Source: an uncultured Verrucomicrobiota bacterium (GTDB lineage Bacteria > Verrucomicrobiota > Verrucomicrobiia > Limisphaerales > UBA9464). From it: DNA of 33,102 nucleotides. The stretch is taken from assembly GCA_903854475.1 (NCBI GenBank), contig CAINWP010000066.1, positions 1 through 33,102 of the forward strand. The letters are read 5' to 3'. Numbering within the stretch: position 1 is the stretch's first letter; each line of letters begins with the position of its first letter. This document shows, one piece after another, positions 1-30,036 of the stretch. The notes under the pieces were generated by a model that ran no database searches, was not told the DNA's origin, and saw only the letters and a list, made by a program, of their open reading frames with translations. The position numbers and the translations under genes were made by a program.

Positions 1-13
1 CTCCGAGCGGTCC
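1..13 (+). repeat. REP hairpin, direct type, truncated by window edge
   Basis: This is the right half of the direct-type hairpin (loop end CTCCGA, mismatched G, right stem CGGTCC at 8-13). The GTAG foot and left stem would lie before base 1. It corresponds to the copy at 186-210, one 197-bp period later. Confidence 0.7.
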
Positions 14-36
14 GTGTGTGCTGACCCTGCTCCTAG

Positions 37-61
37 GTAGGGACCGATCTCCGAGCGGTCC
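37..61 (+). repeat. REP hairpin, direct type
   Basis: GTAG foot at 37-40, left stem GGACCG at 41-46, mismatched A47, tip TCTCCGA at 48-54, mismatched G55, right stem CGGTCC at 56-61. All six outer stem pairs are perfect. Confidence 0.8.
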
Positions 62-75
62 GTCCCCACTGACGC

Positions 76-100
76 GGCGCTTTCGGAGAAATCGCCCTAC
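76..100 (-). repeat. REP hairpin, inverted type
   Basis: On the minus strand it reads GTAG (complement of 97-100), GGCG, A, TTTC, loop TCC, GAAA, G, CGCC. Eight stem pairs are perfect around one A/G mismatch. It faces the REP at 37-61, making a BIME-like pair. Confidence 0.8.
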
Positions 101-185
101 CTCGGACGCGCGTGGGTGAGGCCGAGTTTGCAGCAGGAACCCGCGATGCAGCCTGATGAGCCTCCGAGTCCGATCCTTCTCCGAG

Positions 186-210
186 GTAGGGACCGATCTC
201 CGAGCGGTCC
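186..210 (+). repeat. REP hairpin, direct type
   Basis: Identical to the hairpin at 37-61: GTAG at 186-189, GGACCG at 190-195, tip TCTCCGA at 197-203, CGGTCC at 205-210. Confidence 0.8.
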
Positions 211-233
211 GTGTGTGCCGACCAGGCTCCTCG

Positions 234-258
234 GTAGGGACCGATCTCCGAGCGGTCC
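234..258 (+). repeat. REP hairpin, direct type
   Basis: Third complete direct copy: GTAG at 234-237, GGACCG at 238-243, tip at 245-251, CGGTCC at 253-258. It lies exactly 197 bp after the copy at 37-61. Confidence 0.8.
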
Positions 259-272
259 GTCCCCACCGACGC

Positions 273-297
273 GGCGCTTTCGGAGAAATCGTCCTAC
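273..297 (-). repeat. REP hairpin, inverted type, one stem change
   Basis: Lies 197 bp after the inverted hairpin at 76-100 and matches it except for C95 to T292. That change turns one stem pair into a G-T wobble on the plus strand (an A-C mismatch on the minus strand). Confidence 0.75.
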
Positions 298-357
298 CTC
301 GGAAGCGCGTGGGTGAGGCCGAGTTTGTAGCAGAAACCCGCGATGTAGCTCGATGAG

Positions 358-645
358 TGTTCCCGTTGCCTCAAGAGAGAATGAGCCAAAGAACTGGTGT
401 TCCGAGAGTAGTCGTTTTTCTCATGACTTCACGGGGTCGATTTTCTGTCGGACGCTAGCAGCGGAACGACGCTAATAAATCAATGAATACAAATAAAAGA
501 CACTGCACTAGGTGTTACACTGCAATGTATTCGAGAGCTTAATATTGCGCCGGTGGAAATGGGTTGTTCTCCGTTGGGTCGAGTGGAGCGAATCTAAGAA
601 TGTCTGGCTGGAATACGGGGGTTTCCGCAGGATAAGCATCATCCA
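358..645. other. Intergenic region upstream of the ThuA-like gene
   Basis: AT-rich compared with its surroundings, especially around 470-545. The only repeat seen is a pair of 8-bp direct copies of ACACTGCA at 500-507 and 517-524, 17 bp apart. It could be a protein-binding site ahead of the gene at 646, but nothing else supports that. No confident promoter or RNA gene is seen. Confidence 0.4.
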
Positions 646-1597: not shown

Positions 1598-1673
1598 GGC
1601 TGGGTAGCTCAGTTGGTAGAGCATGCGACTGAAAATCGCAGTGTCGGCGGTTCGATCCCGCCCCCAGCCACCA
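1598..1673 (+). tRNA. tRNA-Phe (anticodon GAA)
   Basis: A complete 76-nt cloverleaf. Acceptor stem GGCTGGG (1598-1604) pairs with CCCAGCC (1663-1669). The D arm is GCTC...GAGC. The anticodon stem TGCGA/TCGCA encloses loop CTGAAAA (1629-1635), with anticodon GAA at 1631-1633. The T arm is GGCGG (1646-1650), loop TTCGATC, CCGCC (1658-1662). The discriminator A1670 is followed by an encoded CCA at 1671-1673, so no CCA addition is needed for the first transcript. It decodes UUC/UUU. Confidence 0.97.
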
Positions 1674-1780: not shown

Positions 1781-3874
1781 TTAGTACGGGGACTCCGGGG
1801 GAGGTGTCTGCCGCAGGAACTCCCGGACCACAGAACCTTCGCGGGTCGGTGGTTGGCAGGCGTTGCCGGTGCAGAGGTAGGCCAACGAGCGTTCCTCGTC
1901 GCCGGGCAGCGTGCGGGCGAACGGATCCACCGGGCCGTGGTTACCGAGGATGACGCGGTGCGTTTCAAACACAGCGTGGGCATGGCTCAGGAGGGCTCGG
2001 GTGGAACCGCAGAGCCAATCGCCCACCAGGACGACCCGCTTGGGTTCCTGAAGCGCGAAGTCGAGAGCGCACAGGAGGAAGGGCACGACCTGCGGCGTCT
2101 GGTGCAGTTTTTGGGCGAAGAGGCGTAAAGTCTTCTCAGCGGCTTCCCGCCAGTCAGGACGTGCGCAGAGGCTGGCCAAGCGAAGCAGGGCCACGCTGGC
2201 CACGGCATTCCCGGAGGGTTCTGCTCCATCGTAGTCTTCCTTCACTCGCATGAGCAGGTGAGAGGTGTCTGCTCCGCTTTGCCAGAATCCTCCGCCGGCC
2301 GGATCGTAGAAACGCTCCATCAGGGCCTCGGCTAATTGGACAGCGAAGGTGAGGTGGTTCGGGTTGAGCGTGGCTTCGTAGAGATCGACCGTGCCGGCGA
2401 GCAGGTGGGCATAGGCGTCGAGCAATTGGACTTGATCGTGTTCCCCGTCGCGCCAGCGATGATAGAGAGTGCCTCGAGTCTCCGGGGTGGGTACCACCCA
2501 GAGGTGTTCTTGCAAAAAGGCCATGTTGCGCTCGGCCATCGTGAGGAACTCGTCGTCGCCCAAGATCGCGAAGGCTCGGGCGCAGGCTCCGAGCATCATG
2601 CCGTTCCAGGATGCTAAAACCTTGTCGTCCTGATGGGGACGTACACGGGTCGCGCGGACCTCGCGCAGTTGGTCCAAGGCCGTTTCCAGAATGGGACGAT
2701 CGGCTTCGGGGACCTCCGCCTGAACCAGAGACAACACATTGAGACCTTTCAGCGGTTCCGGATCGCTGTGGTCGATGAAATTGCCCGCCGGGGTAATACC
2801 GAACCGAGCGGCAACCACGTTGAAGGCCTCGGGGCTGAGCAATGCGGACAGCTCGGCATGGGTCCAACAGTAGAACTTCCCCTCCTTGCCTTCGCTGTCG
2901 GCATCTTCGGCCGAATAGAATCCGCCGTCCGGATGGGTCATGTCGTTGGCCACATACCGCAGGATGTCTCGGGCGACGTCGGCATACCGTGCTTCGCCGG
3001 AAACCAAGAAAGCCTCCAGATAGAGGACGGTTAGTTGGGCGTTGTCGCAGAGCATTTTCTCGAAGTGTGGCACGAGCCACCGTTCGTCGACGCTGTAGCG
3101 GGCAAACCCGCCACCTAGGTGATCCCGGATGCCGCCGGCCGCCATGCGCTCACACGTCTGAAGGACGGCGTGTACGGCCTCTGCGTCGCCAAAGCGCCGG
3201 GCGTAGCGAAGCAGGTAGAGCGGTTGGCTGGGCCGCGGGAACTTGGGCGCGCCTCCGAAGCCGCCGTTCACGGGATCAAACTCGCCCAGCAGCGTTTGGC
3301 CACCGCCATGCAATTCCCGAGGGCCTGTCGGGAAGGCGTTGTCCGGATCTTGGACGACCATCTCTCGTAGCCGGGCCGTGAGCTCGCCGGCGGAGGCGAT
3401 CAAGTCGTCGCGACGGGTCTTCCACAGTTCAACGATGCGCTCCAAGAGGGTCAGGAAACTGGGCTGCCCGTGCCTGGCCTCCGGCGGAAAATAGGTGCCG
3501 CCGTAGAAGGGTTGCAGGTCTGGCGTGAGGAAAACGTTGAGGGGCCATCCGCCGCTGCCGGTGGTCATTTGCACGAAGCTCATATGGATCTTGTCCACGT
3601 CCGGGCGTTCCTCGCGGTCGACCTTGATGCTGATGAAGTGTTCCTTCAGGTAGTTGCCCACGGCCTCGTTCTCAAAGGTCTCTCGCGCCATCACATGGCA
3701 CCAATGGCAGGTGGAGTAGCCGATGCTCAGGAAAACTGGTTTGCCCTCGGCGCTCGCTCGGGCAAAGGCCTCGTCTGCCCAGGGGAACCAGTCCACCGGA
3801 TTGCCGGCGTGCTGGAGCAGGTAGGGGGATTTCTCAGCGGCCAGTCGATTGCGTTGTTCCGATGCGGAGGTCAC
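1781..3874 (-). CDS. YyaL/SPATA20-type thioredoxin-domain protein (DUF255)
   Basis: 697 aa, the usual size for the family. The N-terminal domain (about 10-170) is the DUF255 thioredoxin-like fold: it opens with [19 protein letters not shown], and a redox-type CHWC motif lies at 56-59, followed by the KVDREERPD and [12 protein letters not shown] segments. The remainder is an (alpha/alpha)6-barrel region resembling N-acylglucosamine 2-epimerases, including the conserved [13 protein letters not shown] block. Family members are found from bacteria to mammals; a redox or sugar-epimerase role is suspected but the reaction is not established. There is no signal peptide, so it should be cytoplasmic. 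It is divergent from the methyltransferase gene at 4001 with about 126 bp between, and convergent with tRNA-Phe. Confidence 0.92.
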
Positions 3875-29820: not shown

Positions 29821-29849
29821 AGGGGCGGATTTTTGATCTTTTCGGTTTT

Positions 29850-30027
29850 CCCTGCCCGGTGCGTGTATCGAGACAGTGTCCCTCGACCTAATCCCTTATA
29901 CGGGAGCATCAAAGCGGTTTTAAGTGCTACAATGCCATGCCTCCCTAACAGGAAGGCGGCGAAGCACCCGCTGCTCCCACCTGGTTCCTTCGGTAGAAGG
30001 GGCCCGTCTCTAACGGCCATGGTGGGG
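29850..30027 (+). ncRNA. ssrS: 6S RNA (RNA polymerase-binding regulator), candidate
   Basis: A 178-nt segment of 6S size and pattern. The ends pair: CCCTGCC (29850-29856) with GGTGGGG (30021-30027), continuing as GTG/CAT and CGT/ACG after small bulges, like the closing stem of 6S RNA. The 5' arm contains GACAGTGTCCCTCGACCTAA, which lines up with the conserved CAGTCCCCTGAGCCGAT block of known 6S RNAs. The 3' arm has CACCTGGTTCCTTCGGTAGA and then AAGGG and ACGGC, matching the conserved CACCTTGAACC...GGTTCAAGGG...CGGC part. 6S RNA mimics an open promoter and sequesters the sigma70 holoenzyme in stationary phase. The match was made by eye; a covariance search would settle it. Confidence 0.7.
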
Positions 30028-30036
30028 TTTCTTTCA

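Follow-up and report, generated by a model that had tools for sequence, protein, structure and literature searches.

Short palindromes with an unpaired GTAG at the 5′ foot have been united in a REP superfamily of 24 families (Di Nocera et al., 2013, PMC3733652), described as having short stems of 6–13 bp and a short loop, and as forming clusters and head–head heterodimers whose stems differ. By description, the hairpins reported below resemble that superfamily in the GTAG foot, the short stem and loop, the head–head association of different stems and the clustering. In other species, some REP dimers are found within other palindromes (PMC3733652). With the REP/BIME elements of Escherichia coli and their TnpA-REP, the hairpins share the imperfect palindrome with a conserved mismatch, the GTAG foot and the mosaic arrays (PMC8266576), but they carry a single A/G mismatch, whereas the E. 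coli elements have an AA-GC bulge, and no adjacent Y1 gene was found. Correia and RUP elements are IS630-derived MITEs (PMC2817692) and resemble the present locus in terminal repeats of the IS630 type, a lost transposase gene and a related IS in the genome; however, they are presented in the available text apart from REPs, whereas the interior is a REP array here. Finally, IS families with REP-associated members are IS3, IS110, IS4, IS256 and IS5 (PMC1525189); as in those cases, an IS derivative lies beside REPs, but here it contains the REPs and does not split them. The name IS630 does not occur in the available text of either PMC3733652 or PMC1525189, and no description of REP arrays inside IS630 MITEs was found in the literature searched, with subscription journals lying mostly outside its scope. 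While REPs are already known, a REP-carrying IS630 MITE would be a new form.

The window, i.e., the complete stretch of 33,102 nucleotides analyzed here, is contig C66 of an uncultured Verrucomicrobiota bacterium. Its first part is interpreted, at a probability of about 0.8, as a BIME-like array of direct (D) and inverted (I) GTAG REPs inside a non-autonomous MITE derived from IS630, the left end of which has most likely been lost at the contig start. The initial annotation of this sequence had assigned the array to REP/BIME elements, an identity borne out by hairpins that are GTAG-footed, dispersed, intergenic and arranged in mixed direct and inverted arrays. Its remark that such a unit is less familiar for Verrucomicrobia is weak, because O. 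terrae has already been reported to be highly enriched in GTAG repeats (PMC3733652).

GTAG-footed hairpins at the contig start

The array opens at base 1 of contig C66, and its left extent lies beyond the contig. According to TRF, positions 1–357 form a tandem array with a period of 197 bp, 1.8 copies and 92% matches, cut by the contig start, and self-comparison at an offset of 197 gave 148 identical positions out of 160. At the very beginning, a D hairpin is preserved only in its 3′ portion (1–13, plus strand); it is followed by three complete D hairpins (37–61, 186–210, and 234–258, plus strand) and two I hairpins (76–100 and 273–297, minus strand). The D hairpin at 37 and the I hairpin at 76, both exact consensus copies, constitute a head–head dimer with an offset of 39 bp, while the D hairpin at 234 lies 48 bp past the one at 186. 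In the I hairpin at 273–297, GACG replaces GGCG, by which one stem pair is broken. Both types are 21 nt long, with arms of 9 nt that include one A/G mismatch and enclose a TCC apex; GTAG stays unpaired at the 5′ foot, and the DNA folding energies are –7.4 kcal/mol (D, z –3.1) and –7.1 kcal/mol (I, z –3.6). All three direct and two inverted hairpins with the GTAG foot, mismatch and apex of the initial annotation were recovered and fold as described there.

Elsewhere in the window, a tRNA gene (1598–1670, plus strand; RF00005) is located between a ThuA-domain gene (646–1512) and a Thioredox_DsbH gene (1781–3874, minus strand), and a 6S RNA is found at 29846–30032 on the plus strand (Rfam RF00013, 48.8 bits at a gathering threshold of 46.4).

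Number, placement and stems of the copies

In the genome to which the window belongs (G000; 4.44 Mb, 340 contigs, 97% complete), 192 D cores were found with the pattern GTAG-N6-ATCTCCGAG, leaving the stem free, and 139 I hairpins when allowing up to three mismatches. As the reversed control patterns gave 0 in both cases, a chance origin of the hairpins is excluded. Scoring covered at most 40 candidates per genome; counts from the initial search of this genome (40 of 166 candidates) are therefore lower bounds. Searching for GTAG followed by the stems, as the initial annotation had proposed, reveals copies throughout the genome and not a hairpin confined to this locus. The placement of copies was analyzed in a 550-kb sample made up of the window and 40 stretches, which had been picked for REPs or Y1 genes and are therefore non-random, with genes predicted by a hexamer script. 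Outside these predicted genes lie 129 of the 133 sampled REPs, compared to 85.6% of random positions falling inside, which answers the question raised initially of whether the copies are intergenic. As many as 86 of the 133 are hosted by contig edges, so that REP copy numbers are probably underestimated.

Neighboring REPs in this sample show preferred spacings of 48 bp for D–D (27 of 34), 39 bp for D–I (15 of 30) and 110 bp for I–D (7 of 24). Since 197 is the sum of 48, 39, and 110, the 197-bp unit represents one combination of the commonest spacings and no fixed element; the tandem repeat seen initially is thus real in the window, but does not exist as a fixed genome-wide unit. Alternating orientation, preferred spacings and mosaic arrays are the properties of BIMEs, and the GTAG superfamily is matched by the unpaired 5′ GTAG on a short palindrome occurring in many dispersed, extragenic copies. 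Because the N6 stems are unconstrained in the D pattern, pairing can be assessed without having selected for it. Next to the fixed core, four fully paired versions of the D stem occur (GGACCG/CGGTCC, GGACGG/CCGTCC, GGCTGG/CCAGCC, and GGCCGG/CCGGCC), corresponding to sub-families with alternative complementary stem residues as in the superfamily. Pairing is incomplete in about 41 of 54 copies with an altered left stem (recount; the tabulated copies were mostly picked for a differing left stem and hence are not random), as expected of decaying copies. Accordingly, the compensatory stem changes whose lack the initial annotation had held against its own reading do exist, although most single left-stem variants are decayed.

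A third type of hairpin with the left stem GGCTGG was observed in L086 (contig C143), L106 (C131), and L088 (C124). Its right stem is CCAGCC or CCGGCC, unpaired in one copy, and it is interspersed in the I/D arrays of C143 and C131.

Distribution among relatives

Fifty-nine genomes were compared, comprising the own genome and 58 relatives, with 19 of the set belonging to the own genus. The D core is abundant (20–192 copies) in seven of the 59, all of this one genus; elsewhere, six copies were found in G012, two in G018 and 0 or 1 in the remaining genomes, the latter being the level also reached by the reversed control. In exactly those seven of the 19 genus genomes, the I core occurs as well (10–111 copies), with 0 copies in the other 12. 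Among 384 genomes of the class, a draw including just one other genus member (G008), the exact D 19-mer is present in a single one, the own genome. Scanning named genomes with the exact D hairpin, a selection that is non-random and possibly lacks the own genome, gave at least 70 stretches mostly titled Verrucomicrobia or Verrucomicrobiales, while Akkermansia, Neomarinimicrobiota, Opitutae, or Opitutaceae appear in some titles, possibly in error.

In several assemblies (L083, L202, L215, and L244), REPs are located near a gene which we take from its sequence to be uvrA. REPs in uvrA genes have been reported (PMC3733652).

The right edge of the proposed element in the window

Beyond the array, the window contains a right module (module R; 362–508, plus strand), the last ~49 bp of which are common to IS630 right ends. 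The module terminates in an IS630-type inverted repeat (497–508, minus strand) with one mismatch to GTGCAGTGTCTC, immediately followed by TA (509–510) within the CTAG at 508–511, which marks the right edge of the element. TA is the target dinucleotide expected for IS630. This transposon end at the 508 edge of the flank is omitted from the initial annotation.

Scoring 40 of 41 candidates in the own genome gave at least 22 matches to module R. Eleven copies, including the one in the window, reach the inner end of R, all having a REP 38–51 bp away on the inner side; among the truncated copies, three have a REP at a distance of 45–97 bp and two are without REP, and the remaining six matches are IS right ends. 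Most copies show a sharp terminus, reading CACTGCAC directly before TAG. The last ~49 bp of R correspond to repeats on six contigs, L396 being one of them, with 97–98% identity to L396 over 118 bp, and are found in the complete element of L194 as well, while the inner ~100 bp bear no resemblance to the IS. In relatives, R adjoins REPs in L202 and L237; in addition, L233 has left-end DNA of the IS at 38 bp from a D hairpin. Where an innermost D hairpin is combined with the whole of R, the distance from the D foot to the terminal repeat amounts to 204–212 bp (own-genome loci, L202, and L237).

Another module of ~105 bp (module L, starting about GGTTCCTCGCTATTTTCAGTGG) is represented by L078:7806–7910 and 36 further copies in G000, at least 37 in total (40 of 65 candidates scored). 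Of 30 copies that were fetched, 20 have REPs at a distance of at most 60 bp, and no IS630 end was seen in these; the module often stands 4–9 or 52–59 bp 5′ of the first REP and is oriented as D. The assumption that L is another IS630 end was rejected, as its alignment contains no terminal repeat. Modules L and R were not seen together in one array, with many arrays being cut by contig ends.

Arrays combined with IS630 remnants at other loci

A complete IS is present in L194, encoding a 363-aa IS630-family transposase (NF033545, 257.5 bits at a cut-off of 100; DDE_3) and having matching terminal repeats beside CTA. When the IS630 protein was searched for, the own genome yielded 25 fragments, and matches, some of them distant, were obtained in 10 of the 19 genus genomes, comprising six of the seven REP-rich ones and four of the 12 others. 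The exception, G007, is REP-rich and possesses module R (L237), yet gave no IS630 match. In the own genome, near-identical IS right ends are distributed over six contigs and left ends are present, too, while the IS body is not assembled; stop-free IS630 copies occur in G017 and G016.

Matches to IS630 or R led to 20 stretches being fetched. In 12 of these, all own-genome loci, DNA of the IS630 left end, in many cases interrupted by stop codons, lies at most about 200 bp from a REP, the REP foot being mutated in C274 and the REP pointing the opposite way in C132. The same junctions recur at unrelated places: IS nucleotide ~324 meets the REP foot (C257, C274, C127, C88, C173, and partly C311), IS codons ~2–52 are joined to ~213–233 and then followed by REPs (C212 and C21), and IS nucleotide ~137 meets the REP linker (C141 and C247). 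At loci other than the window, the order of IS630 gene remnants, REPs in arrays and terminal repeats is thus the same, and an internal deletion of the transposase gene, as is typical of MITEs, is common to these copies.

Matching terminal inverted repeats as in IS630 MITEs are found at the right end of the window element and, pointing inward, at both ends of the elements on C21 (690 bp), C76 (673 bp), and C51 (508 bp). Considering the six R loci with a visible far side, a left terminal repeat is present at four (C21, C76, C51, and, with three mismatches, C247) and missing at two, C214 and C270 (truncated R). The 20–30 bp outside the left repeats have nothing in common beyond CTA. Flanking TA is found at the right end in the window, at one end only on C76 and C51, and at neither end on C21. 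By chance, 11-mers resembling the terminal repeat (at most 1–2 mismatches) turn up 14 times away from REPs in the scanned stretches, none of them after CTAG. In the 550-kb sample, CTAG was seen 518 times versus 1994 expected from base composition, i.e., it is about fourfold depleted, and it directly precedes 36 of 88 D feet and 0 of 43 I feet.

Search for a Y1 enzyme

Matches to Y1_Tnp (PF01797) number 107 in 18 of the 19 genus genomes, including eight in the own genome, and with the exception of G003:C92 all were fetched with flanks of 1–2 kb or up to the contig end. In the flanks (up to 2 kb) of these 106 of 107 matches, many of which are situated at contig ends so that only one side is visible, there are no D or I hairpins; a Y1 gene with cognate REPs close by, the arrangement that defines REPtrons and RAYTs, was thus not found among them. 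Allowing for stem variants, 83 of 84 Y1 loci (L031–L038, L069–L076, and L119–L186) were without hairpin, and in L076 a distance of about 6 kb separates the REPs from the Y1 gene, beyond which they lie. The scan of 40 further Y1 loci (L257–L296) with the D and I cores gave none. Conversely, 70 listed D-bearing stretches contain no Y1 gene detectable with a profile of the genus's own Y1 families, which a very divergent Y1 could escape. The hairpins flanking Y1 family B are not of the GTAG type. Because contigs break at REPs, a REP-flanked Y1 gene may be situated on a lost contig. A recurring gene family beside REPs was looked for as well, and only genes that look like common chromosomal ones, along with spurious frames derived from REPs, were encountered.

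When compared with NF047646 (REP-associated tyrosine transposase), one member each of two Y1 families scored 46.9 and 69.3 bits, below the cut-off of 80. Two RAYT-like Y1 sub-clades, defined at 80% identity, are confined to REP-rich genomes (six and five of seven, versus 0 of 12 others), a contrast that weakens at other or lower identity thresholds and may be explained by close kinship of the REP-rich species. Another Y1 gene, A1 (L072:8134–9120; contig C160 of G000; ~312 aa), has similar genes in G001, G002, G003, G005, G011, G012, and G017. It is found once per genome at such similarity and in the same downstream neighborhood across species, as if it had been domesticated, and its flanks contain neither D nor I REPs. 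A1 was kept only as a candidate for a trans-acting enzyme. With no adjacent Y1 gene found and the sub-clade pattern explicable by kinship, a RAYT acting in trans on the D and I REPs is possible. The initial suggestion that D and I are two partner substrates of one enzyme is compatible with their co-occurrence in the same seven of 19 genomes and with the 39-bp pairing, while such an enzyme was not found in these searches.

Discussion

Directly visible in the sequence are the hairpins, which are numerous across the genome, lie between genes, keep preferred spacings and in part have compensated stems, and, in the window, an IS630-type right repeat beside TA. In the proposed mechanism, the terminal repeats would be recognized by an IS630 transposase that comes from copies which are probably autonomous and have their ends in this genome, and the MITE would be cut out as double-stranded DNA and inserted at the TA in CTAG. 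Being excised and inserted as one unit, it would take along the REP array as cargo. The hairpins themselves may first have been made and copied as single-stranded DNA by a GTAG-recognizing Y1 enzyme of the TnpA-REP/RAYT type, the gene of which was not found beside them, and arrays could grow and shrink locally by the action of this enzyme or by recombination and slippage. From sequence comparison, IS630 copies most plainly seem to have captured REP arrays and later moved as MITEs, and we infer transposition of the REP-carrying MITE on the same basis. Capture might have come about because CTAG, the presumed target, precedes so many D feet in spite of its depletion.

The frequency of CTAG before D feet also speaks for a rival reading, in which the window holds an ordinary array of GTAG REPs/BIMEs mobilized by a RAYT (TnpA-REP) alone and the IS630 pieces are later, now decayed insertions into the CTAG before D feet. 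Such a sequence of events would also be in line with IS ends that directly abut REPs, at the foot in L239 and at a degenerate copy in L392, and with the two RAYT-like sub-clades restricted to REP-rich genomes. We consider it unlikely, however, as it is the inner side of the IS end that faces the REPs, the distance between D foot and terminal repeat is nearly constant (204–212 bp), and the same junctions recur at unrelated loci, while none of the 43 sampled I feet follows CTAG. Moreover, the fetched Y1 genes have no D or I hairpin nearby, and the sub-clade pattern is sensitive to the threshold and may reflect kinship.

Even less probable is that the arrays are kept mainly as RNA-level signals for adjacent genes, i.e., as stabilizers of mRNA 3′ ends or as terminators. 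Although the hairpins are stable and reside in intergenic DNA, and hypotheses of this kind have been put forward for REPs elsewhere (PMC3733652), no gene orientation is clearly preferred by clusters that have a predicted gene on both sides, with nine codirectional, four convergent and three divergent cases (26 further clusters at contig edges are left out of this tally) against a baseline of 58, 19, and 22%, respectively, for random intergenic positions. Hardly credible, finally, is an assembly artefact in the form of a repeat collapsed at a contig end: the array does start at contig base 1 and 86 of the 133 sampled REPs are at contig edges, but the same units also occur within contigs and in relatives whose assemblies carry titles of their own.

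The REP-carrying IS630 MITE is hence the preferred reading for the window, while many or most REP arrays, for example those flanked by module L, are not demonstrably within such elements. It is only tentatively proposed, and at present rather doubtful, that in this genus the IS630 DDE transposase is the main agent dispersing REP arrays, as MITE cargo, with an unlinked single-strand enzyme or recombination merely expanding them in place. If this were true, the spread of REPs would be uncoupled from a flanking RAYT. Transport as IS630 cargo would account for the presence of entire arrays with fixed spacing at unrelated loci, and the REP arrays found here suggest why such genomes fragment in assembly. 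A REP family residing in a double-strand transposon, with no RAYT found adjacent to it, would offer a second route of REP movement that can be tested.
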